Under the pieces are notes generated by a model. The model saw only the letters and a program-made list of their open reading frames with translations. It made no database searches and was not told the origin of the DNA. This document shows, piece by piece, positions 8,267-32,077 of a stretch of 32,444 bases of DNA. This DNA comes from a virus: positions 1-32,444 of IMG/VR virus record IMGVR_UViG_3300042568_000254. One strand, 5' to 3'. The first letter of the stretch is position 1. Each line of letters starts with the position of its first letter. The position numbers and the translations under genes were made by a program.

Positions 8267-11200
8267 GTACAGCACGAACCAGTAATCCAACGACTATACC
8301 TGGTATTTCTACGCCGCCTGCGGATGTATCCCCAGCGCTTCGTAAGTACCTTGAGACCCTGGCAGAAACAATTGAAATCCGACTTGGGCGTCGTGGTGAT
8401 CCGCGTGATCGAGCGATTACACTTCGTGAGTTGATTGATTCTGGACTGGCTACTGAACTGGCTGCACGTCCGTTTAACCCAAATACTGGTGGCGGACCTA
8501 CGTTTCAACCGCCTTATGACAGCACTGTGCCGCCTACGCCGACTGGGTTTACGGCTAACGGGGGCTACGCGCTTGTTACGTTGTTTTGGGACTACCCGAA
8601 ATACGGTCCTCACGCGCACACAGAGATCTGGCGCAATAGCGCGAACATTATTGGCGACGCGCAGCTAGTCGGCATTAGTTCTGGTTTGTCGTTTGTTGAC
8701 CCTGTTGGCGAGGGCGCGTCGTTTTACTACTGGATTCGCCACGTTTCTGCGTCTGAGGTTTATGGCCCGTTTAACTCTGCAAACGGCACACTAGCTCAGA
8801 CAGCTTTGAACGTAACGTTGCTGTTGGCTACGTTGAATGGGGCTATTACTGAGTCTCAGTTGACTCAGGCGCTTGGGTCGCGAATTAATCTGATAGACGC
8901 TAGTGCTCTTACAGTTAATTCTGTTGCTTATCGGGTAGCCCAAGAAGCGACGGCTCGTTCTACGGCTATTTCAAATGAGGCCGCTGCGCGTGCTGCGGCT
9001 ATTACTTCTGCTGTAGATACATTGCAAGCCCAGATCAATGATCTTTCTGCTATCGCCGAATACAATAACTCTACGGCTTACGTTACCGGAGAACTGGTAA
9101 CTTACAACGGATTTTTGTACAAAGCTAAAAGTGCTACTACTGGCAATCTGCCGACTAATACAACTTACTGGGAGCTGCTAGGCGAGTACAGCAGTCTTGC
9201 TGACATTGTTGATCAGAACGCTGCGTCAATTGTTCAGATCAACACGATTAATGCTACTAGTACTTCAGCCGCGTCGCAGGCTATTCAATCTGTAACAGCT
9301 ACTGTTAACAACCCGACAACGGGAGTGGTTGCTACTTCTAGTGCGCTTGGAGCGTTGACTACTAGAGTTTCAACTGCAGAAGGAAACATAGTATCGAATA
9401 GTTCAGCGATTACTTCGTTGAATAATGCTGTAACTAGCCCTACTACTGGTCTTGCTACCAAAGCTTCGTCTTCTGCGTTGAGTGCTTTAGATAGTCGTGT
9501 AACGGCTGCAGAGGGGGTGAATACTTCACAGTCTACGTCGCTTACGTCGCTGCAAAATACTATCGATCATCCTACTACTGGTCTTGCTGCCAAAGCTTCG
9601 TCGACGGCTTTAAGTGCTTTAGATAGTCGTGTAACTACCGCTGAAGGTACGGTAGCGTCCCAAGGGACGTCGATAACGAATCTTAATAATACGATTAATC
9701 ATCCTACTACTGGGCTTGCTGCCAAAGCTTCGTCTTCTGCGTTGAGTGCTTTGGACAGTCGTGTATCTAGCGCTGAAGGCACGATCTCGTCTCAAGGGAC
9801 GTCGATAACCAATCTTAATAATACGATTAATCATCCTACTACTGGTCTTGCCACCAGAGCTTCGTCAACGGCTTTGAGTGCTTTAACTAGTAGGGTAACG
9901 GCTACTGAGGAAACAAATACGTCTCAAAGTGATTCTATAACTACGCTTGGCAATACAGTAAATGACCCGACTACTGGACTATCTACCAGGGCTTCGTCAA
10001 CGGCTTTGAGTGCTTTAACTAGTAGGGTAACGGCTACTGAGGAAACAAATACGTCTCAAAGTGGAGCTATAACTACGCTTGGCAATACTGTTAACCATCC
10101 TACTACTGGTCTTGCTACTAGAGCTTCGTCAACGGCTTTAACTGCTTTAACTAGTCGTGTATCTAGTACCGAGGAAGATATAACGGCTCAAAGTGAGTTG
10201 ATTACGGCTCTTGGAACTACTGTAAACAATCCTACTACCGGTCTTGTGGCTACGTCTAATGCTGTGAGTCTGTTAAGGAGTGAGATATTTCCTAACGGTA
10301 CAGCTGAAGCCTCGTACATTGATCAAGTTAATGCTGCGGTTGGTGCTAATGCATCGGCTATTCAGGCTGAAGCTACAGCACGCGCAGAGGCTGACGGTAC
10401 TTTGTTTGGGCAGTACACCGTAAAGGTTGACCTGAACGGGTATGTGTCTGGCTTTGGGCTTGCTTCTACCGTTAATAATGCAGCGCCGTTTTCTGAGTTT
10501 ACTGTTCGCGCCGATCGGTTTGCGATTGCGTCACCAGCTCCGCCTGTGGGCTCTCGAGTTATTACCCCGTTTGTAGTCCAGACAACAACTCAGGTTATTA
10601 ACGGTATTACGGTTCCCGCAGGCGTCTTCATGGACGCTGCTTTTATTAAAAATGGCACTATAACCAACGTCAAGATTGGTCTTGGTGAAATCGATAACGC
10701 TAGGATAGCAAACCTTAGCGCCGATAAGATTAATGCTGGCCGACTAAACGCTGCATATATAGCTATTGATAATACTGTTCTTGATACTTACTTTGACCCT
10801 AGTATTAATCAAGAGCGTTTGTACATTCCTAATGCGCGAATAAACAATGCGCAGATTAAGGACCTAGCAGTTACTACCGGAAAAATTAACGACCTGGCTG
10901 TCAGCACGCTAAAAATTGCAGGCAACGCCATTACGCAACCAGAGGTATATACAGCGGGTGACGTATACATTCCAAACAACTCATCAGCTGCGATTCAGTT
11001 AACAAACAGCGGCGTTGCAGAAAACTACAACTTTGTTGGCGCTGGCAATGGAGACTACGAGTACCAGTTGATCTACATTGATCCAGAATTTGGATTCGCA
11101 CAATATGACTACGTTTATGTAGGCCCTAACAACGGCGATTACGTTCGAGTGCTGGTTTACAGTGCTCCGACATTTACAAACGCGATCACTGTTATCGAAA

Positions 11201-11556
11201 CCCCAACAGTTACCGTTGGGGTTGATGCGACAGCTGCTGTGCAGATTGTGTACTACGGAACACATGACGGTTCGATTTACACTTTTAACGACTCCGGACA
11301 GCATCTTTTCATGTTGCTTGACACTGGGTCCGGGTATCGTCTCGTTGCACAACAGCAGGTCGGTCTGCGGACAGACAGTAGCGCAGACACGATGGCATCG
11401 CTGCCGATAGCCATGACGTTTACGGCGAGAAACATCACGACCGCGCGAGTCAAGATCTTGACTGGAAGTCGCCGTGTGGACTTGCCGATGGGTAATTTCA
11501 GTAATGCATGCTGGTTACGAAACAGCACTATTTCATTGCTGGGGGCAAAGCGATGA
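8263..11556 (+). CDS. Long tail fibre / tail-tip protein with tandem coiled-coil repeats
   Basis: This 1097-residue protein starts in an ATGA overlap. In order it shows: an N-terminal region; an Fn3-like domain at about 90-170 (VTLFWDYPKYGPHAHTEIWR); Ala-rich helices (QEATARSTAISNEAAARAA); a carbohydrate-binding-like WxxxxxY module (YVTGELVTYNGFLYKAKSAT) near 275; seven tandem repeats of 42-44 residues (about 351-656); a DUF1983-like segment with FTVRADRFAIASP at about 745-757; then KINAGRLNAAYIAID and a beta-rich tail. The C-terminal half resembles the part after the core of lambda J-type tip proteins. A trimeric fibre is inferred from the L..L..R heptad-like repeats. Receptor unknown. Confidence 0.88.
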   Translation: MSTARTSNPTTIPGISTPPADVSPALRKYLETLAETIEIRLGRRGDPRDRAITLRELIDSGLATELAARPFNPNTGGGPTFQPPYDSTVPPTPTGFTANGGYALVTLFWDYPKYGPHAHTEIWRNSANIIGDAQLVGISSGLSFVDPVGEGASFYYWIRHVSASEVYGPFNSANGTLAQTALNVTLLLATLNGAITESQLTQALGSRINLIDASALTVNSVAYRVAQEATARSTAISNEAAARAAAITSAVDTLQAQINDLSAIAEYNNSTAYVTGELVTYNGFLYKAKSATTGNLPTNTTYWELLGEYSSLADIVDQNAASIVQINTINATSTSAASQAIQSVTATVNNPTTGVVATSSALGALTTRVSTAEGNIVSNSSAITSLNNAVTSPTTGLATKASSSALSALDSRVTAAEGVNTSQSTSLTSLQNTIDHPTTGLAAKASSTALSALDSRVTTAEGTVASQGTSITNLNNTINHPTTGLAAKASSSALSALDSRVSSAEGTISSQGTSITNLNNTINHPTTGLATRASSTALSALTSRVTATEETNTSQSDSITTLGNTVNDPTTGLSTRASSTALSALTSRVTATEETNTSQSGAITTLGNTVNHPTTGLATRASSTALTALTSRVSSTEEDITAQSELITALGTTVNNPTTGLVATSNAVSLLRSEIFPNGTAEASYIDQVNAAVGANASAIQAEATARAEADGTLFGQYTVKVDLNGYVSGFGLASTVNNAAPFSEFTVRADRFAIASPAPPVGSRVITPFVVQTTTQVINGITVPAGVFMDAAFIKNGTITNVKIGLGEIDNARIANLSADKINAGRLNAAYIAIDNTVLDTYFDPSINQERLYIPNARINNAQIKDLAVTTGKINDLAVSTLKIAGNAITQPEVYTAGDVYIPNNSSAAIQLTNSGVAENYNFVGAGNGDYEYQLIYIDPEFGFAQYDYVYVGPNNGDYVRVLVYSAPTFTNAITVIETPTVTVGVDATAAVQIVYYGTHDGSIYTFNDSGQHLFMLLDTGSGYRLVAQQQVGLRTDSSADTMASLPIAMTFTARNITTARVKILTGSRRVDLPMGNFSNACWLRNSTISLLGAKR
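9313..10230 (+). repeat. Seven tandem 126-132 bp coding repeats
   Basis: Six 44-residue units and one 42-residue first unit each begin PTTG and carry ASS(T/S)ALSAL(D/T)SRV..(A/T)E. Total length is 918 bp. At DNA level the copies at 9859-9930 and 9991-10062 share an identical 72-base stretch, and units 3 and 4 share another long block. Recent duplication or unequal recombination is therefore likely. An eighth, partial unit begins at 10231. Confidence 0.95.
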
Positions 11557-11924: not shown

Positions 11925-12087
11925 ACAAGATTACGTAGAGATTCGTCGCAAGGAGTACCCAGCGATCGGGGATCAGTTAGACGCTCTTTGGAAGGGCGGG
12001 GTTGACCTGGAGCAGATGCGGGAGAAAGTGCTACAGGTAAAGCAGAAGTATCCTAAACCGACCGGAGACGACAATGCACAAGGGTAA
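11908..12087 (+). CDS. Small conserved tail-cluster protein (59 aa)
   Basis: GTG start at 11908 with TGGAGG about 8 bases upstream; a longer frame from 11893 is less likely. The product begins MKLKVKQDYVEIRRKEYPAIGDQLDALWKGG and ends in a helix (EKVLQVKQKYPKP). The 'RxKEYPxIxDQLDALWKGG' pattern is a frequent small gene in phage tail clusters. Function is unknown. It overlaps the previous gene by 17 bases. Confidence 0.8.
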   Translation: MKLKVKQDYVEIRRKEYPAIGDQLDALWKGGVDLEQMREKVLQVKQKYPKPTGDDNAQG

Positions 12088-12178
12088 AAAATGCGTTCTT
12101 AATGCGCCGGTTAAGCCAATTAAGATGGAAAAAAAGAAGCCATCTAAGGGCTACTCTTCTCCTAAAAAGAAAGGGTAG
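12074..12178 (+). CDS. Possible lysine-rich micro-protein (34 aa)
   Basis: ATG at 12074 with GGAG at 12063-12066, overlapping the end of the previous gene. The product starts MHKGKKCVLNAPVKPIK and about a third of its residues are lysine. Similar tiny basic proteins occur at the ends of phage tail operons. The call rests on spacing, ribosome site and strong charge bias alone. Confidence 0.45.
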   Translation: MHKGKKCVLNAPVKPIKMEKKKPSKGYSSPKKKG

Positions 12179-12208
12179 AATAACCAGCTATGAATTGAGG
12201 GGGTTAGT

Positions 12209-12520
12209 ATGCCTGCTGCTAAACGCATTGATGATGGTATTCCAAAATCGTTTAGCCTAGCTGGGCACAAGATTGAAGTAGTTAACATCCCCCGCAGTAA
12301 GTGGAAGAACGGTAAAAACTGCGTTGGTATGTGGCTGCCGGACAAGTACCGGATTGAGCTGCATGGTTCGTTAGAAGGTACGAACCGCCAGCAGGTGTTT
12401 TTGCATGAAGCCGTGCACGCTATTCTTGACGTGGCTGGATATTATGAGATGTCAGAAGATGAGGCCCTGGTAGACAGGCTGTCTCATCTCCTGCATCACA
12501 TGCTCGTGTCCATGGAATAG
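12209..12520 (+). CDS. HExxH zincin-like protein
   Basis: The 103-residue protein has GAGGGGG at 12195-12201 upstream of its ATG. It carries HEAVH at residues 66-70 and a downstream DEALVDRLSH segment in which Glu85 could be the third metal ligand. This is the plan of small zincin-like proteins (the IrrE/ImmA-like group). The N-terminus has a beta hairpin (HKIEVVNIPRS) and GMWLPDKYRIEL. It probably binds zinc, but no substrate can be named. It is the last plus-strand late gene before the convergent point. Confidence 0.75.
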   Translation: MPAAKRIDDGIPKSFSLAGHKIEVVNIPRSKWKNGKNCVGMWLPDKYRIELHGSLEGTNRQQVFLHEAVHAILDVAGYYEMSEDEALVDRLSHLLHHMLVSME

Positions 12521-18790: not shown

Positions 18791-21334
18791 TCAGTTGTAA
18801 TTGACCTTGTTAGTATAGCTATTGTCTTCGGTATGCAACAGTCTTTGATCGGTACCGTCGAAGTATGTATTGATCAGGCGCTGGCGTTCTAGCTCGTCGA
18901 TCTCCCAATTAACGACGGTTCCTGTAACTACATTAACGTCGCGGGGCGCATTGGCCGGTCGTTTACGGGCTGATGTGATTCCATTGCGGCTCATTTGCTT
19001 TGAGAATTCCCGTTGGGACAGACGCGGGTTAGCCTCGGTCTGAACATGGAACACCGTACGGAGGTGCTCCATTGGGATGATCGTGTACTTCTCTTTAGCC
19101 ATGGCAATCCAGTGCTTAACGATGCGCTGGGCCGTAGCTACTTCGTTCATGTTCTGGACGTTAGCCGTGTTGATGTCGAGGATGTCGCTAAAAAACAACA
19201 AGTCTCCACGCTTTAGGGCTTCTGCAAACTCCTCAAGGATCGACATGGATACGTGCCGCATCTCGCTCTTAGCGTTGTTGTCGATGCAAGTGTGCACCAT
19301 CCGCTCCTCAACCTTAAAAGTGTGGAGGATGCCCGCAAACGCATAGAGTTCTTTATCTAATTGATCGAGGTTCTTGAGCAGATCAGGGTGTGCATCTTCG
19401 AGTTTCTGTTCCTGGCGCGGCGGGATGTTGTACCGCCGGTCGCCGTTTTCGATCTTGACTGCATCGTTACGGTTGGTCAGGAAGATGAAGTTTGTGTAAC
19501 TAGGGATCTCGGTCTGGTTAGTCCGCATAGCGCGGATAGTAATAGTGTCTTCTGTGATTTGATTCTTAAGCTTGTCAGCAATTTTCATCGTTCCTATTGA
19601 AGACGATGCCATATGGAATTCGTCTACGATGAGGAAGATTGCGTTACGCATGTACAGGTTGAAGTGCTCTTCGATGCTCTGAAGAGACTTCATCGGGACG
19701 TGTTCTTGGCCGAACAGTGGGCGGAGGATGCGGCTGTAGAACAGGCCTTTGCCCGTGCCCGGTACGCCGCCTAACACCCAGGCTGTCTTGGCTTTCTTTC
19801 TGGTTTGAAAGATGTAAGCCAGCCAGTTGATGAACCGTTCGAACTCCTGATCACCGCCGCCAAGTATGTGGTGGACTAGGGTATAGATCAGAGGACAGTG
19901 GTTAGATATCAGTTTTGCCTGGCCAAACGACAGTTCTTCATCAATGGCTTCGGGATGCAACATGTACTTAGTCTTTCGGTACATGTTGACGAAATAGGGT
20001 ACGTTGTCAAAGTCGATACCGGGGCTTTCGCAGGTTGGGTCAAACACGACGCGTGCGTCGCGTACGAAGTCAGGTTCTGGTCGACCGTGGCTAAGCATGA
20101 AGCTTTCAATGCTGGTCTTGCTAGTGGGTACTAGTGGGTAATCTTCTGTAAACTGGTTAAGGTTTGGGTCGAATACACCGTTGTAATAGATGTCTGTGTA
20201 GTAGTCACGAAGTACAACTGGGTACGTAGCTTTGCCAGACTTTTCAAGATGCGTCTGGAAGATCTCGAAGATGCTTTTGTAAAACTCCTTGTCTGCTTTT
20301 TCAATCTCGAAGATCGGTTCGTCCTTGAAGTTGTACATGTACGTCGGGCGTTCGATGTTGAAGTAGTACGCCCCACTGTCTCCGCCGTTAACATTGCAGC
20401 GGATCCAAGGCATTGCCGAAGTGTCAGCAATAGTGATGGACATCTTGTCAGGATTAAGCAGGACTTCATGAGCCTGGTAATCCACGGTCATTGTCTGGAA
20501 CTTAGCGTTCTTCTTACGAATGCCTTTGACGTCTCGAAGGTCGTCCTTGATTTCTTGGCCAGTCTGGAAGACAGCCTCGGGATTCAAAGACGTCATTGTG
20601 GCAGCTAGATCAAACGACGCGTTTGTTCTGACTACGCGGACAATACGGTCGGCGTCTGAAGTAAACGGGTTATGGGTCGGATCTTCAAACGTCGGAGGCG
20701 CAATGAAGATCAGCTTACTGTTGTCAGCAACTGATACGTCTACTGGGTACTTGAGCGATTGGCCGTTAGCGCTGAGTTCCAACTGATCTTTAAATACCGG
20801 GGTAGCGTAATTAAGGTTCTGCAGCCAAAGTTTAATAGACTTCGGCGGCATTGGAACCGTAAGTAGCATAAAGATATGCATGGAGATACGGTTGCCCTTG
20901 AGACCAAGGCTAGCTGAAGCCTGGGCGATGTAAGTTACATCGTGCAGTTCAGGGGGCAGGTCTGCAATGATCTGCTCAGCGATCAGTTGTACGTCGCTAG
21001 AGTTTAACTTCTTCGAACGTACGATCTGCCGGGGCAATGTGATTGCATCAAAGTCGAGGACAAGCAAGCCGTTAAGAGCCAGTCGGTCGCTTTTTTGTGC
21101 GCGGCTTTCGTTGACGAGCGGGCGACGCAAGGCTCCTTTGAGCATGCAGTCGCCTTTGGATCCGTGAAAACGGATCAAGTTTTCAAGTTGCTCGATGCCG
21201 AGTTGTGAAACTTGGATCGAGTGCTCGTGTGAGGTTACATCTTTTACATGCGGGTATGGTTGTGTTTCGCCGTTGGCGAAGTAATGTTTGCTGAGTGAGG
21301 TGCCAACAGGCCCCTCAAGAAACGTAACCTTCAT
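18791..21334 (-). CDS. Primase-helicase: AEP-like N-terminus and DUF5906/D5-type SF3 helicase
   Basis: The 847-residue protein has GGGAG as ribosome site. The N-terminal half has primase-like motifs: LLVLDFD (residues 90-96, two Asp), SMHIF with His153, and YPVDVSV with Asp199. These fit the metal-binding order of archaeo-eukaryotic primases. The C-terminal half is a helicase: Walker A GVPGTGKG at 523-530, Walker B FLIVDEFH at 567-574, FLTNRND at 618-624 and GDRRYNIP as arginine-finger region. It probably makes primers and unwinds the fork for the family A polymerase. The csrA-like gene precedes it, separated by 18 bases, and the csrA hairpin ends just upstream. Confidence 0.9.
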   Translation of the reverse strand: MKVTFLEGPVGTSLSKHYFANGETQPYPHVKDVTSHEHSIQVSQLGIEQLENLIRFHGSKGDCMLKGALRRPLVNESRAQKSDRLALNGLLVLDFDAITLPRQIVRSKKLNSSDVQLIAEQIIADLPPELHDVTYIAQASASLGLKGNRISMHIFMLLTVPMPPKSIKLWLQNLNYATPVFKDQLELSANGQSLKYPVDVSVADNSKLIFIAPPTFEDPTHNPFTSDADRIVRVVRTNASFDLAATMTSLNPEAVFQTGQEIKDDLRDVKGIRKKNAKFQTMTVDYQAHEVLLNPDKMSITIADTSAMPWIRCNVNGGDSGAYYFNIERPTYMYNFKDEPIFEIEKADKEFYKSIFEIFQTHLEKSGKATYPVVLRDYYTDIYYNGVFDPNLNQFTEDYPLVPTSKTSIESFMLSHGRPEPDFVRDARVVFDPTCESPGIDFDNVPYFVNMYRKTKYMLHPEAIDEELSFGQAKLISNHCPLIYTLVHHILGGGDQEFERFINWLAYIFQTRKKAKTAWVLGGVPGTGKGLFYSRILRPLFGQEHVPMKSLQSIEEHFNLYMRNAIFLIVDEFHMASSSIGTMKIADKLKNQITEDTITIRAMRTNQTEIPSYTNFIFLTNRNDAVKIENGDRRYNIPPRQEQKLEDAHPDLLKNLDQLDKELYAFAGILHTFKVEERMVHTCIDNNAKSEMRHVSMSILEEFAEALKRGDLLFFSDILDINTANVQNMNEVATAQRIVKHWIAMAKEKYTIIPMEHLRTVFHVQTEANPRLSQREFSKQMSRNGITSARKRPANAPRDVNVVTGTVVNWEIDELERQRLINTYFDGTDQRLLHTEDNSYTNKVNYN

Positions 21335-21352: not shown

Positions 21353-21562
21353 TTACTCTTGTTTATCATCCGCTGATAAACAAGAGCTTGGTGCATCGTC
21401 GAATGTTTCCTGACGATCTATAGTTATACTTTGATCGGCGACGAATGCTATGCGAACTTGATTTCTGTCTATACGACAGACCTTTACAGTGACGATGATG
21501 TCACCCTCGCGATGTACCACGACTGATTCGTTCAAACGTCTTGTTAGAACAAGCCGGGACAT
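21353..21562 (-). CDS. csrA: CsrA/RsmA-family RNA-binding regulator
   Basis: The 69-residue product reads LVLTRRLNESVVV ... IIVTVKV ... NQVRIAFVAD ... ITIDRQE, matching CsrA (LILTRRVGETLMI ... VTVTVLGV ... NQVRIGVNAP ... VAVHREE). The RNA-contacting residues are kept: Leu6 and Arg8 for CsrA Leu4 and Arg6, and Arg50 for Arg44. CsrA dimers bind GGA in hairpin loops and change translation or stability of mRNAs. The N-terminal extension is two residues, and the C-terminus is longer and acidic. The ATG follows the polymerase TAA directly with no good ribosome site, so it depends on coupling or on the CAGGA in the hairpin upstream. Confidence 0.93.
   Translation of the reverse strand: MSRLVLTRRLNESVVVHREGDIIVTVKVCRIDRNQVRIAFVADQSITIDRQETFDDAPSSCLSADDKQE
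21356..21386 (-). promoter_or_regulatory. Perfect 13-bp hairpin with GCGGA loop at the csrA 3' end
   Basis: On the minus strand CTCTTGTTTATCA pairs with TGATAAACAAGAG around the loop GCGGA. It covers the last codons of csrA and ends at the stop codon, 21 bases before the primase-helicase ATG. No U-tract follows. The exposed GGA makes it a candidate CsrA-binding site; a processing or stability role is the alternative. Confidence 0.72.
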
Positions 21563-23380
21563 TTACTTGCTATACATCCTGTCATAGCCGCCTTCGGCAG
21601 AAAGCGGTAAGTCGGGTGCCCAAGATGGCGGGGTGCACAAATCCTCAATGATCGCTTTCATTGTAGCATCGGGATCTTGATCTGACGCAACAATTACTAT
21701 TTCATCATGGACCGTCAAAGCGACGCGGCCGTTCTGTAAGTTGTTGTCTAGTCTCAATAAACTGTCGGTAATCACGATCCTAGACAACGCTTGGATGACG
21801 TTTTCAGTGATTCGTCCGCCGTATGTCGTCTCTTGCAGGACGCCTCGGGTTTGGTATGTCAGTCCCTGGGACAACATCTGTAGGTTTTCGTACCTCAGAG
21901 CCATCCCATTGGGCAGGACCAATGCTCGATCCTGAACGGTCAGGATACCGTTGCGGTACGGTACGTTGTAATTGTCCCTATGCAATGACTGCTTAAGGAG
22001 GTTCTCAAGCCGGGCCCATAGAAGCGGTATTTGATCGTATGTCGATCGATACGTACTGACTACGTTAAGAGCGTCCGTTTCGGATATCTGCATAGCAGGA
22101 CCGGCTGCTCCAGATTCGAGGGTCAGCTTGAACTTGTTGTGGCCCATGCCGTAGCCAAGACCGAGGATAGCGGTCTTACCTACAAAGCGTTCAGTTGGGT
22201 GATCTTTCTTGTTGATCGATCGGTTGTAGATTTTCGAAGCGAAGTTACTGTATATATCCTCACCTCGACGGAACTGTTCAAGAAGATCTTCTTGGCCAGC
22301 AAGCCACGCAAGCATGCGGGCTTCGATATTGGACAAGTCAGCTACATAAAGCAGCTGGCCAGCCGGAGCAATGAGCGTTTTTCGGAGCTCGCTACCGCGC
22401 GGCAAATTCTGCAGGTTGATCTTTTCAGTACCGCCAAACCGCCCAGTGTGGGCAGCGTAGTACTTGAGTGGAACACTGATAGTGCCGTCATGATGCGCTA
22501 CATCAAGGAACCGCTTGGCGCGTGTTTCACTGATGCGTGATTTGACGGCCTGCCTGGCGTCCCAAATGTGTTTGTGTTGTGGGTATTTAGCAACAAGTTG
22601 CTTCCAACCTGCGTCGTTTTTACCGAGAGCAGGGATGAGTTGTTTAGTAGTAGGGCTTCGTTTTACTGGTGCAGTAATACCAAGTGACTCGATATGCGCA
22701 ACAAACTTCTGGTTGCTTGATAAAACTTCACGTTCAAGACCTGAGTTTTTGATTAGGTCTTCAGCACGGGTGAACTCTTGTTCGTGGTACGTGATCAGTC
22801 GTTCACGGTCAATCATCAACACAGGCTGACAGAACATCCTGGTGGTTAGATTGATTAGGTCAAGTTCAGACTTGGGGTATGTTGTGGCAAGTTTGTTGTA
22901 GACAGCATAAGTAAGATCAACGTCTTGGATACAGTACTTGGCGATTGCCTCTTCTATGTCTGGAGGCAAATCGTACATCCCTTTTGCTTTGACTAAGTCT
23001 TCTCCCTTACGCATTGATTCATCGTCAGGGAACAAGCGGATGCTTGTTTCCTTAAGTGATGCTGATTGGCCAGGGAACGCACCGCGTGCCATGGCAGCAG
23101 TGTCAAGGTAGTAGGCAGGCGTAATGCCGTAATGGCGAGCCAAGATGTAGCCGTCGAATAAAGTGTTGTGGCAAAGCAACATAACGTTGCTCCAGTCAAA
23201 CTGACGCAAAGCGTCTTCGACGTCGTCGGCTCCGTACCACTCAGTTGGTTCGTCGCCCACTTTGATGCCAGCACCCCAGACTTTAAACTTGGGATCCTTG
23301 ACGTATTCCATCGTGGTCATTTTGGTGAGACTTAACTTGACGTCGTAGTAAGTCTCAAAGTCGAGCGTGACTAGAAGCAT
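21563..23380 (-). CDS. polA: DNA polymerase, family A, with 3'-5' exonuclease domain
   Basis: The 605-residue protein has exonuclease motifs DFET (Asp7, Glu9), HNTLFDGY (Asn72, Asp76) and IQDVDLTY (Asp153). Polymerase motif A is VADLSNIEARMLAWLAG at 347-362 (Asp348), motif B follows KTAILGLGYGMG at 402-413, and motif C is TVHDE with His558-Asp559-Glu560. It lacks the 5' nuclease domain, as usual for phage polymerases. SD AGGAG precedes the ATG. It lies downstream of the MoxR/VWA group and upstream of csrA. Confidence 0.95.
   Translation of the reverse strand: MLLVTLDFETYYDVKLSLTKMTTMEYVKDPKFKVWGAGIKVGDEPTEWYGADDVEDALRQFDWSNVMLLCHNTLFDGYILARHYGITPAYYLDTAAMARGAFPGQSASLKETSIRLFPDDESMRKGEDLVKAKGMYDLPPDIEEAIAKYCIQDVDLTYAVYNKLATTYPKSELDLINLTTRMFCQPVLMIDRERLITYHEQEFTRAEDLIKNSGLEREVLSSNQKFVAHIESLGITAPVKRSPTTKQLIPALGKNDAGWKQLVAKYPQHKHIWDARQAVKSRISETRAKRFLDVAHHDGTISVPLKYYAAHTGRFGGTEKINLQNLPRGSELRKTLIAPAGQLLYVADLSNIEARMLAWLAGQEDLLEQFRRGEDIYSNFASKIYNRSINKKDHPTERFVGKTAILGLGYGMGHNKFKLTLESGAAGPAMQISETDALNVVSTYRSTYDQIPLLWARLENLLKQSLHRDNYNVPYRNGILTVQDRALVLPNGMALRYENLQMLSQGLTYQTRGVLQETTYGGRITENVIQALSRIVITDSLLRLDNNLQNGRVALTVHDEIVIVASDQDPDATMKAIIEDLCTPPSWAPDLPLSAEGGYDRMYSK
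21569..21588 (-). promoter_or_regulatory. Candidate CsrA-binding hairpin before csrA
   Basis: On the minus strand GCTAT and ATAGC pair around the loop GACAGGATGT, 6 bases before the csrA ATG. The loop contains ACAGGAUGU, nearly the published CsrA consensus RUACARGGAUGU with the R missing. ACA and UGU can also pair to leave GGA exposed. It overlaps the last polymerase codons and the only SD-like sequence for csrA. Autorepression is inferred. Confidence 0.7.
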
Positions 23381-24551: not shown

Positions 24552-25232
24552 TTAGCCTCCTACAAGTTTAGCTGTTAGTACGATTTCGTTTACGAGTGCG
24601 TCGTCAAAATTAATTTCTTCCTTGATCTCTTGTGCGCGCTGTTTGCGGTTGATTTTAGTATACATACGGGTCATAGATTCATGGGGGACAAAAGATTCGC
24701 CAGCGGGCCAAGCAAGCAGGAGCTGTTTTACACTAGTGCAATTATTAAGTAAGTCGCCAATTTTCCGATAGTATGTAAGTCGATTGTTATGGTGCTCTGT
24801 AACTTGTTGGTGCAGATCGTAACAAGGGGTTTGAAGATCTTGGATAAAGTTCGCAGGAAGTTCTTCAAAATGAACTTCAACACCCCCCCAAGGTCGTTCG
24901 CGGTAAACATAGATTTTAGGCACAAATTCAAATTTAAGGTTTGTAGTTGTATTGTTTCTATTAAAACCATTCGCTGAAACGACGGTAACAGTGGTGGCTT
25001 CGTCGCGGTTTACTCCTTGCGGGGGGCCTCCAAACGAAGAAAATTTGAGTCTATCTTTGGTTTCCCACTGTTTCTGAAGGAACTTGTACGGTTCCGAATT
25101 AATGATCGCATCTCGCATACGATCAGTAAGCCACGTAGAAGCTGTCGGCTCAGGGCGAGCGGTGTCGAAAGCTTCCATAGCACGGTTATGAATATTTGAA
25201 CGGAGGTCTTGAGTCATTCTTACAGAGGCCAT
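24552..25232 (-). CDS. Unrecognised protein between MoxR ATPase and VWA genes
   Basis: A 226-residue protein with a good AAGGAG ribosome site. It begins MASVRMTQDLRSNIHNRAME, with a helical N-terminus, then FEFVPKIYVYRERPWGGVEV, a Cys/His-containing middle (PCYDLHQQVTEHH) and a helical end rich in EIK/EE. I see no catalytic motif. Its tight placement between the AAA ATPase and the VWA protein suggests it is part of that system, perhaps as substrate or partner. Confidence 0.75.
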   Translation of the reverse strand: MASVRMTQDLRSNIHNRAMEAFDTARPEPTASTWLTDRMRDAIINSEPYKFLQKQWETKDRLKFSSFGGPPQGVNRDEATTVTVVSANGFNRNNTTTNLKFEFVPKIYVYRERPWGGVEVHFEELPANFIQDLQTPCYDLHQQVTEHHNNRLTYYRKIGDLLNNCTSVKQLLLAWPAGESFVPHESMTRMYTKINRKQRAQEIKEEINFDDALVNEIVLTAKLVGG

Positions 25233-26386: not shown

Positions 26387-26686
26387 TTATTTAGTCTTGA
26401 TTACTTGTACCCAAGTAAACTTGCGGTACGGGAAGCGTTTGGTTTTGATTAAGCGAAGTTCTTCTTGTGGCACATTGCGTTTAGCCCACCACAAGAATAT
26501 GGATATGAGGGCACCGGCCCAGAGGCCAGCCATCATGCCTGCGAAAGTACCGGCAAAGATCCAGATAAAAAAGAATGTTAAGACAATGTCTAAAAAAATG
26601 TCGTATTTAGCAATACGTCTGAGGTTGAGTTTAAGTAGCAAGAAAATCATAGCTAGAGCGGCGAGCAGTCCTGATAGGAAAAACAT
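26387..26686 (-). CDS. Membrane protein, three predicted helices
   Basis: A 99-residue protein with three hydrophobic segments at about residues 2-20, 30-48 and 50-68 (FFIWIFAGTFAGMMAGLWAG), linked by basic loops (LRRIAKYD) and ending in a charged tail. It has a conserved phage-like look and no lysis motif. It could act at the host membrane early in infection; that is inference. Confidence 0.78.
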   Translation of the reverse strand: MFFLSGLLAALAMIFLLLKLNLRRIAKYDIFLDIVLTFFFIWIFAGTFAGMMAGLWAGALISIFLWWAKRNVPQEELRLIKTKRFPYRKFTWVQVIKTK

Positions 26687-26689
26687 AGT

Positions 26690-26896
26690 TTAGCTCTCGT
26701 TGTCTTCTAGTTTATTGTCACGCACCCATTCTTCAGCTACGCAAGTAATGCGCCATTGGTCATAGAAGAACTTGTTTGGGTCAAGTTCCATTCGGGCGAT
26801 ATGGTGCTTAAACGCTTCTAACACTTCGTCGTAGAACCCGTCGCCCAAGTCATCAATAGTCAGGCTGATGGGTATTGTTCGCGGTTGCTTGCTCAT
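26690..26896 (-). CDS. Small unknown protein
   Basis: A 68-residue protein, MSKQPRTIPISLTIDDLGDGFYDEV, with the rest helical and acidic (VLEAFKHHIARMELDPNKF). It overlaps the zinc-ribbon gene upstream by ATGA. No recognisable family. Confidence 0.7.
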   Translation of the reverse strand: MSKQPRTIPISLTIDDLGDGFYDEVLEAFKHHIARMELDPNKFFYDQWRITCVAEEWVRDNKLEDNES

Positions 26897-29884: not shown

Positions 29885-30184
29885 TCATAGGGGTGGGTGT
29901 TCTGCGCCCCAACGGTGCCAAGAGGCGGCATCGGCTGCTTGATCTTCGGTCTGGTAATAGTCGGAAATACGGTCGTACGGCTCGTATGTCCAACGGTCGG
30001 TGTTGGCGTTGTAGGTAAACGAAGCACGGCCAACATACCATCCGAATCCGGAACGGAGGGGAATTGGGGGTGATACCGCGCAGAGTTCGTGGGTTGCTTG
30101 CTCAGTCAGTTCGTCGATTACATACCGAAAGAACTGATCCAGATTGAACACTCGGATATGGTCAAGATATATGGTGGGAGTCAT
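29885..30184 (-). CDS. Unknown small protein beside the origin-like region
   Basis: A 99-residue protein, MTPTIYLDHIRVFNLDQFFR, with ATG preceded by AGGAGA. It has a helix (YVIDELTEQATHELCAVSPP) and a beta-rich aromatic part (FGWYVGRASFTYNANTDRWT). No known family. It is the gene immediately left of the candidate origin. Confidence 0.75.
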   Translation of the reverse strand: MTPTIYLDHIRVFNLDQFFRYVIDELTEQATHELCAVSPPIPLRSGFGWYVGRASFTYNANTDRWTYEPYDRISDYYQTEDQAADAASWHRWGAEHPPL

Positions 30185-30669
30185 ACCTTGTCTCCTAGTA
30201 AGTCTCCGATTGGTTTACAGATGAAACAATTAGAGGTCAGTTGACCGTGGTTAGGGGTCAATTTTGAGTTATCCACAGGATGTGTGATCACACAATTGGC
30301 ATGTGTGCACCCATGTGTGCAGCAATTTTTCTATATAAATCAATATGTGTGCAGTGTGTGCACCCTTTTTCTTAAGTTCAATTCAAATTTAAGAGATGTA
30401 TTAAAAAAGTATTTTTTCATGTCTCTATATACGAACTGAACTCGAAAAAACCCTGCACACACGTCACACATTTTTCGTGTTTCGTTAGAAATCAAGCACT
30501 TATGTAAAAAACCTAGTGTCCAATGCCTGCACACACCCCGGTTTTTCCCTGCACACACGGCCATAAAGTGCTCACACATTGGCAAATGCCGTCACACAAC
30601 TTTGTTGCACAGTGACCACTGACCGTTGACCACGGGCAATGGGCACTGGCAATGGTCCGTTGTTAGTGG
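30185..30669. other. Candidate replication origin: DnaA box, iterons and AT-rich core
   Basis: No gene fits this 485-base stretch. It has a perfect DnaA box TTATCCACA (30269-30277), the 14-base palindrome TGTGTGATCACACA (30281-30294), four direct TGTGTGCA sites (30302, 30314, 30346, 30355), an AT-rich core at about 30322-30450, then three inverted TGCACACA sites (30454, 30528, 30550) and three TCACACA sites (30464, 30572, 30592). GGTCA/TGACC elements flank both sides. The symmetric array around an AT-rich core is typical of an iteron-type origin or partition/control site. Confidence 0.72.
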
Positions 30670-30876
30670 TCATTCCCACCGGGTCTCGGCCTCCTGTTCG
30701 TTGATCCGTTCCCAGTGGGCACGCAACTCCAGTTTCGCTTCGTCGAGGTCGTTCTTGCAGCGATAGAGGAGCTGCACATAGTCGACTGTGTCCCAACACT
30801 CGGCGACCCAATGGCCGCCGGTGTCGTAATGGTCGTTGGCATAGCGCTTGAGCAGGTCTACATTGTGGTGTGTCAT
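30670..30876 (-). CDS. Small unknown protein
   Basis: A 68-residue protein, MTHHNVDLLKRYANDHYDTG, with Trp-rich GGHWVAECWDTVDYVQLLY and an acidic helical end. GAGGA lies about 9 bases upstream. It is next to the iteron region, on the right. No known family. Confidence 0.72.
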   Translation of the reverse strand: MTHHNVDLLKRYANDHYDTGGHWVAECWDTVDYVQLLYRCKNDLDEAKLELRAHWERINEQEAETRWE

Positions 30877-31116: not shown

Positions 31117-31284
31117 TTAGCTGAAGAGGTTGAGTACGCCGAGGACGAAGAGGGCTGCCATGTCAGGCTTCTCTTTGGCGTAGGCGATGACGGTCTTGGA
31201 TGCTTCTTTAGCCTTTTCGGCTGCGAGGTATCCGGCGTCGGGGGTCTGGTCTTGGTTGTTGGTGGTCTGGTTGATGTTATCCAT
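31117..31284 (-). CDS. Small early protein (55 aa)
   Basis: First minus-strand gene after the divergent region. Starts MDNINQTTNNQDQTPDAGYL, an Ala/Lys helix (AAEKAKEASKTVIAYAKEKP), and ends in a short hydrophobic LFVLGVLNLFS. Upstream is TAGGAG with the leader at 31285-31357. Function unknown; its position suggests it is expressed first. Confidence 0.78.
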   Translation of the reverse strand: MDNINQTTNNQDQTPDAGYLAAEKAKEASKTVIAYAKEKPDMAALFVLGVLNLFS

Positions 31285-31357
31285 GGTAGATACTCCTAGT
31301 TAGTGATAGATACACAATAGATACTGACCGCGAGACACGAAGTGTCGAGCGTGATTC
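31285..31357 (-). promoter_or_regulatory. Repeated leader with GACAC-TTC-GTGTC hairpin
   Basis: Minus-strand leader of the first early gene, homologous to 29810-29877. Shared sequence: CTCGCGGTCAGTA(A/T)CTA(A/T)TGTGT and ACTAAC before the ribosome site. The 5-bp stem (31334-31346) differs from the other copy at four paired positions yet stays fully complementary, so the structure appears to be conserved. Confidence 0.7.
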
Positions 31358-31603
31358 GTTGGGGGTTACTGGGGGACAAGGTTCCATAGATGAGGGTGAA
31401 AACAAGGTTCCAACGGGTGAATCCGGGAAAAGGGGGGGTGCTGGAGTCCGAGGGGGGAGATAGTGCGTGAGCGATTTAGATAGGAAAAATCGATCACCCT
31501 ACCCCCCTTCAGAAAAACGAAACCTGAAAAAATTTTTATAAAATTTTTTTGCAAGGCGTTTTTGCGTATACTCCCGCCCTTAACCACGGCCCACGAGCCA
31601 CTG
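31358..31603. promoter_or_regulatory. Divergent control region
   Basis: No gene fits. It holds two copies of ACAAGGTTCCA (31376-31386 and 31402-31412, 26 bases apart), a 10-bp inverted repeat with one mismatch (arms GTGAGCGATTT and AAATCGATCAC, 31467-31497), a C-rich stretch and an AT-rich block (31526-31552). These fit operators and promoters between the leftward early genes and the rightward genes. Confidence 0.55.
31549..31572 (+). promoter_or_regulatory. Possible promoter for the HNH gene
   Basis: TATACT at 31567-31572 is a good -10, 31 bases before the ATG. The TTGCAA at 31549-31554 is too close (12 bases) to be the -35, and only T-runs lie at the normal distance. Tentative. Confidence 0.33.
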
Positions 31604-32077
31604 ATGACGGACAGTAAAATCTGTTCACGGTGCCAAAAGGAGCTGCCTTTAACCTCGTTTGAGCAGATCAAGGGGAGGTCGCTGCGGAGTTTCTGTCGCC
31701 CCTGCAAACTGGCCTCTGACCGTCAACAACGGTCCACGGGCTACAGATCCTACCTCTCGAACCTCCTGTCCAAGAGCCGGGACACCAATAGGAAACGGAG
31801 GTTTACCGGTTACGAGGTAACCCTTGATCAGTTGGTCGAACTCTGGGAGACGCAGGATGGCCGCTGCGCAATATCGGGGGTCGTTTTAACCCACCATAAC
31901 GACGGGTCCGGCCTCAAGGACTTTAATGCCAGCATCGACCGGATCGATAGCACCCTGGGGTATGTACCGGGTAATGTTCAGCTGGTGGCTTACCGGGCTA
32001 ACATGCTGAAACAGGCCCTAAGTAGCGACATGCTGTACTGGTGGGTGAAGACTATTTACCAGCACTCTTGTGATTGA
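31604..32077 (+). CDS. HNH-type endonuclease with N-terminal zinc ribbon
   Basis: I chose ATG 31604 (157 aa); a TTG start at 31562 would place 14 residues on promoter-like sequence. CSRC (7-10) and CRPC (31-34) form a zinc ribbon. The nuclease part has GRCAISGVVLTHH, ASIDRIDSTLGYVPGNVQLV and RANMLKQAL, the order of HNH/endonuclease VII-like enzymes found near phage packaging genes. It may help terminase or cut host DNA; a homing role is possible but no intron is visible. Confidence 0.83.
   Translation: MTDSKICSRCQKELPLTSFEQIKGRSLRSFCRPCKLASDRQQRSTGYRSYLSNLLSKSRDTNRKRRFTGYEVTLDQLVELWETQDGRCAISGVVLTHHNDGSGLKDFNASIDRIDSTLGYVPGNVQLVAYRANMLKQALSSDMLYWWVKTIYQHSCD

Follow-up and report, generated by a model that had tools for sequence, protein, structure and literature searches.

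A mirrored repeat array at a conserved locus

IMG/VR virus record IMGVR_UViG_3300042568_000254 was analysed over its full length of 32,444 bp, hereafter the window. Its early genes point leftward and encode a putative AEP primase / SF3 helicase, a family A DNA polymerase, a SNF2-type helicase, a MoxR ATPase with a VWA protein and a PD-(D/E)XK nuclease. Between two leftward open reading frames lies an array of short repeats arranged in two oppositely directed arms around an AT-rich core. The left edge of the array is marked by TTATCCACA and a palindrome of 14 bp (Table 1). The window holds 7 copies of the repeat TGTGTGCA, four forward and three reversed, all inside 30302-30557; dinucleotide shuffles of the whole window gave a mean of 1.27 and a maximum of 3, which rules out a chance origin of the cluster. 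The degenerate form TCACACA occurs three times in the right arm and a fourth time as half of the palindrome. A preliminary description of this DNA had reported the DnaA box, the palindrome, the opposed arms and the AT-rich core, and all were recovered where it placed them; the IHF consensus site and the 7-bp periodic flanks were not part of it. We interpret the array as very probably the site at which replication of an uncultured phage starts, judging from comparison of related sequences.

Table 1. Features of the array and of the genes considered here (positions in the window)
Feature	Position	Strand	Remarks
Open reading frame left of array	29885-30184	-	
DnaA box TTATCCACA	30269-30277	+	sequence motif; among arrays nearly confined to closest relatives; possibly accessory
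14-bp palindrome TGTGTGATCACACA	30281-30294		sequence motif; two degenerate repeat copies, face to face
Iteron TGTGTGCA, left arm	30302-30309	+	
Iteron TGTGTGCA, left arm	30314-30321	+	
Inner iteron pair TGTGTGCA, 9 bp apart	30346-30353 and 30355-30362	+	spacing kept in most relatives
AT-rich core	30363-30453		likely melting site; 72.5% AT, against 49% in the whole window
Inner inverted pair, TGCACACA (30454-30461) and TCACACA (30464-30470)	30454-30470	-	
IHF consensus site AATCAAGCACTTA	30490-30502	+	exact WATCAANNNNTTR
Iteron TGCACACA, right arm	30528-30535	-	
Iteron TGCACACA, right arm	30550-30557	-	
Degenerate iteron TCACACA, right arm	30572-30578	-	
Degenerate iteron TCACACA, right arm	30592-30598	-	
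7-bp periodic flank, TGACCAC-type heptads	30612-30672		lag-7 / lag-14 signal in 30561-30741
Open reading frame right of array	30670-30876	-	
AEP primase / SF3 helicase (DUF5906), 847 residues	18791-21334	-	candidate initiator
Predicted winged helix, residues 729-808 of primase-helicase	18911-19150	-	structure models
Codon of wing residue 804	18923-18925	-	
Family A DNA polymerase	21563-23380	-	swaps jointly with primase in L074
Protein adjoining array, 217 residues	28786-29439	-	rival initiator
Endonuclease VII-like gene, right side of array	31562-32077	+	

Relatives were gathered by searches with two neighbouring proteins, which yielded ~80 metagenomic contigs. In about 20 close relatives the mirrored TGTGTGCA array recurs at this locus, with diverged spacers. 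Many of the distant ones, scanned for any mirrored 7-mer array, have one at this locus too, built from a repeat sequence own to each lineage: TGTGTGTCG in L053, TGTGTGTCA in L066, TGTGTGACG in L094, GTGAGACA in L058 and L074, TGTGTTCCA in L063, TGTGTACCA in L097, L132 and L148, TGTGTACAC in L141, TGTGTGCCA in L160 and L155, CTGTGACA in L064, TGTGCCA in L065, L082, L089 and L092, TGTGTAGCAG in L077 and L096, and TGTAGCAG in L179. The preliminary description had allowed that the repeats might prove absent from related phages; they are present there. A nucleotide search of phage records returned zero matches, and a de novo array search in phiA008 gave no convincing array. While the motif drifts, the layout stays: the spacing of inner copies is 8-10 bp in most relatives, the opposed innermost copies lie 77-104 bp apart, and outer copies are mostly spaced by ~10-12 or 18-22 bp. 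Among the best matches listed per locus, strong two-sided arrays were seen only here, and the small genes flanking the array differ between relatives while the array itself persists. A constant layout combined with a changing repeat argues for selection on the layout itself, the repeat following the preference of a protein. Such an array, with fixed geometry and drifting motif, points to the binding array of an initiator, so that the earlier proposal of a replication origin is well supported on comparative and anatomical grounds only. In L073 (1640-2020) the arms differ, with TGTGTGC on the left and TGACACA-type copies on the right; possibly a change of repeat has been caught half-way, or two binding modes coexist.

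A further element recurs within the array. An exact WATCAANNNNTTR, which we take to be the IHF consensus, is found in 11 of 28 arrays as against 0.49 expected from shuffles, and its rate elsewhere in the contigs is 0.014 per 400 bp; the 28 arrays are related, so not all are independent. In most cases it falls directly beyond the inner copies of the right arm; both strands and several clades are represented. The preliminary description had suggested a protein that bridges the arms; an IHF-like bend site at this position makes contact between them plausible. Beyond the repeats, a 7-bp periodicity extends through 30561-30741 (lag-7 z 3.9, lag-14 z 3.6), and the right flanks of relatives have a mean z of 3.3. 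Degenerate heptads flank the array on both sides in most relatives (TGACCAC or GGTCCAC on the right, GTGGTTA or GTGGTCA on the left). Stretches of them occupy 30561-30741 and 31201-31361 in the window, and 9381-9561, 10521-10781, 10921-11221 and 12061-12341 in the near-complete relative G007, in both cases concentrated within ~2 kb of the array.

The primase-helicase as candidate initiator

Which protein reads the repeats? We propose that the array is the origin of a podovirus-type phage (an assignment based on a P22-like portal in a relative), and that both arms are recognized by the winged helix predicted at the C-terminus of this phage's own AEP primase / SF3 helicase. We put the probability of this at roughly three in four, the primase-helicase being preferred as initiator by about three to one over all else. 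The SF3 helicase domain is present with its Walker motifs (PF19263 above cut-off; match to 6k9c at E 6e-36), and the Walker A residues of the GxxGTGKG stretch are invariant among relatives. So are D94, D96 and H153, the candidates for the catalytic D-x-D and H of an AEP fold. Structural matches to AEP primases were weak only (LigD polymerase domain, S-2L PrimPol), and the P4-family primase model TIGR01613 scored 28.2 bits, below its curated cut-off of 108.7. The predicted C-terminal winged helix is closest to the C-terminus of the NrS-1 primase (617-718, Z 6.8), with other winged helices, such as that of ORC, at Z ~3; Foldseek alone gave no match below E 0.001 for this domain. The structure of the P4 origin-binding domain is not among the structural matches listed, which carries no weight against a likeness.

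Two lines of comparison connect the primase with the repeats. Between close relatives with different repeats, the last 80 residues of the primase are 61-76% identical and the helicase core 98-100%. At position 804, in the wing, all 7 genomes whose repeats are CCA-type have R, and all 5 with TGTGTGCAG have T or S, across clades; the residue distinguishes CAG-type repeats from CCA-type ones. Of 2,118 variable columns, no other that was scored in 11-12 of these genomes splits cleanly with one side uniform. Given the predicted fold and the covariation observed at this residue, the winged helix would be the part that binds the iterons. The second line comes from contig L074 which, judged from its sequence, is a natural recombinant. 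Its MoxR (93%), VWA (90%) and endonuclease (72%) proteins are L073-like, whereas PolA (81%) and the N-terminus of the primase (78%; only the first 288 residues are on the contig) are L058-like. The array sides with the latter: its repeat is the GTGAGACA of L058, and it agrees with the L058 array at 72% overall and 63% with repeats masked, against 47% and 54%, respectively, for L073. Array and primase/polymerase thus match in their shared L058-likeness, though ~8-10 kb apart with unlike genes between them. Most likely the repeat sequence changes in step with the phage's own primase-helicase.

Alternatively, the array is an origin but its repeats are read by the 217-residue product of the adjacent gene, which would in turn bring in the primase-helicase. 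This is the nearest conserved gene; it is fast-evolving, shows the highest correlation with motif distance (Mantel r 0.47, n=15) and is over-represented among the top covarying columns. Yet the protein matched no known domain family, and its profile, which finds matches in L065, L077, L096, L148, L179 and L091, finds none in L063, L097, L082, L141 and L160, all of which have intact arrays. Moreover, the L074 copy is not L058-like (29%), whereas the L074 array is. Since the gene is absent by profile from genomes with full arrays and fails to track the array in L074, we prefer the primase-helicase and regard the neighbour as an unlikely reader of the repeats.

Several observations weigh against the primase-helicase. 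The residue-804 pattern was noticed before it was tested, and 24 of 792 random splits yield such a column in the winged-helix domain. L094 and L179 carry T at this position with other repeats, so the repeat is not determined by this residue alone. The winged helix reached a Mantel r of 0.15, as against the 0.47 of the neighbouring gene, and tree-wide Mantel and column covariation analyses over eight proteins were not decisive, in part favouring that gene. The evidence from L074 is a single event with a partial primase. Some 9 kb separate the array from the primase gene, which is not the arrangement of the satellite islands SaPI/PICI. Finally, no change in the sign of GC skew is seen at the array in the near-complete relatives G007, G011 and G003.

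Other genes of the region have features of their own. Between primase and polymerase, a CsrA-like protein (PF02599, E 5e-11) is encoded at 21353-21562 (-) and kept in nearly all relatives. The product of 24552-25232 (-), which adjoins the MoxR gene, has weak similarity to Nmad5; it is present in all relatives at 22-67% identity and evolves much faster than the neighbouring genes.

Direction of synthesis and other possible roles for the locus

The opposed arms had earlier been taken to suggest bidirectional initiation. If forks left an origin both ways and met at a terminus opposite, the skew would change sign. In G007 and G011, near-complete and circularly permuted copies of one species, the + strand is instead G-rich almost all round, regardless of gene direction. 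Skew at four-fold sites is ~0 in + genes and +0.25 in - genes, and intergenic skew is +0.10. With a one-sided skew and no sign change at the array, initiation in both directions is not supported. This pattern agrees with synthesis that is mainly one-directional or rolling-circle, and suggests that most synthesis runs one way, perhaps by rolling circle later in infection; skew is an indirect guide, and a weak one if the phage switches to rolling circle. In the Pseudomonas aeruginosa phage KPP25, the GC skew that we computed is confounded by gene direction.

Could the array serve a purpose other than initiation? A packaging (pac/cos) site comes to mind, recognized by the small terminase like the pac site of phage P1, which has repeat groups on two sides; ~2-5 kb rightward of the array, G007 encodes TerL, a P22-type portal and a protein with weak likeness to TerS (E 5e-4). 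Three related contigs (L029, L032, L055) also end inside the array, and these ends are probably assembly breaks rather than genome ends. A fixed genome end at the array was rejected on the spread of contig ends: 41 fall in the 10 kb upstream of the MoxR gene, and only 5 of them at a distance of 4-6 kb, with no concentration at the array. The circular permutation of G007 and G011, the repeat identity of L074, which goes with primase/polymerase, and the AT-rich core and IHF sites, which suit an origin, leave packaging very unlikely.

A shade less credible still is a role as an operator that controls transcription of the early genes, or as a centromere in partition. Intergenic inverted repeat arrays are commonly operators, and IHF acts at promoters too. 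However, promoter-like matches in 1.6 kb number 1 against 1.7 expected, and lie outside the array; the copies are confined to one locus (7/7 in the window); and the array outlasts changes in the small genes on its flanks.

Least credible is an oriC-like origin driven by host DnaA, with the repeats secondary. A perfect TTATCCACA does stand beside the left arm, and the closest clade conserves it along with the adjoining sequence, but it is unremarkable by count (8 window sites with at most one mismatch against 6.1 expected) and missing from nearly all arrays outside that clade, including L050, L084 and L057, which have the same TGTGTGCA repeat; one further match lies near the L065 array. DnaA boxes are thus not conserved as they would be in a DnaA-dependent origin. 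Because it is absent from nearly all other arrays, even same-repeat ones, the box is accessory at most, and the case for the use of host DnaA, put forward in the preliminary description, is weak.

Relation to satellite-type origins

The two-armed layout was reported in 2018 as unique to the satellite islands SaPI/PICI (PMC6092414). Their initiator helicase, in some cases joined to a primase in one protein, recognizes the iterons through its C-terminal domain (PMC6092414, PMC7581432), as established for SaPI Rep (PMC7581432). The layout of the array is the same here. In SaPI/PICI, however, the origin is found directly 3' of rep or pri-rep, whereas here the array is at 30.3-30.6 kb and the gene at 18.8-21.3 kb. 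SaPI/PICI are helper-dependent satellites, while G007 has terminase, portal and structural genes; the present phage differs further in having its own polymerase and in the recurrence of the IHF consensus. By analogy, the present origin would work like the SaPI/PICI system without being a member of it. In the P4 alpha protein a winged helix binds the origin repeats, and primase and helicase reside in the same protein (PMC4234260). The candidate described here would likewise unite primase, helicase and a predicted winged helix in a single protein, but the P4 primase is of the TOPRIM type and this one is probably AEP. The PrimPol of phage NrS-1 combines AEP and helicase as here, its helicase part being the match at E 6e-36, and no repeat array is described for it in the literature searched. 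A literature search for mirrored iterons in phages gave nothing relevant.

A further parallel comes from KPP25 (Kochitakasuvirus; NC_024123), in which the primase-helicase has a relative over its full length. A 677-bp gap contains an array of TGTTACGA/TCGTAACA that has inner pairs 8-9 bp apart and an AT-rich core, as in the window; KPP25 differs in its repeat, in arms of lower regularity and in having a second, partial array at ~58.3 kb. The KPP25 arrays (26394-26825 and 58257-58542) share the same 8-mer, the second being a partial copy with the same spacings. The pair recalls P4, which has two repeat regions, ori and crr.

How might such an origin fire? We envisage that the C-terminal winged helix of the primase-helicase would bind both oppositely directed arms, an IHF-type bend perhaps joining outer and inner copies. 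The inner pairs would then load helicase rings on each side of the AT-rich core, the core would melt, and the same primase-helicase would unwind and prime, leaving the family A polymerase of the phage to extend the primers. We consider it possible, rather than probable, that all of the following hold together: that tailed phages use a two-armed origin of the satellite type, that the repeat code of both arms is repeatedly rewritten along with the wing residue, that related phages thereby lose the use of each other's origins, and that bulk synthesis is one-way. A two-armed origin in tailed phages, apparently including the culturable KPP25, bears on the source of the satellites' replication module. 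The ~12 natural repeat variants in one fixed layout offer a test set for the joint change of initiators and origins.
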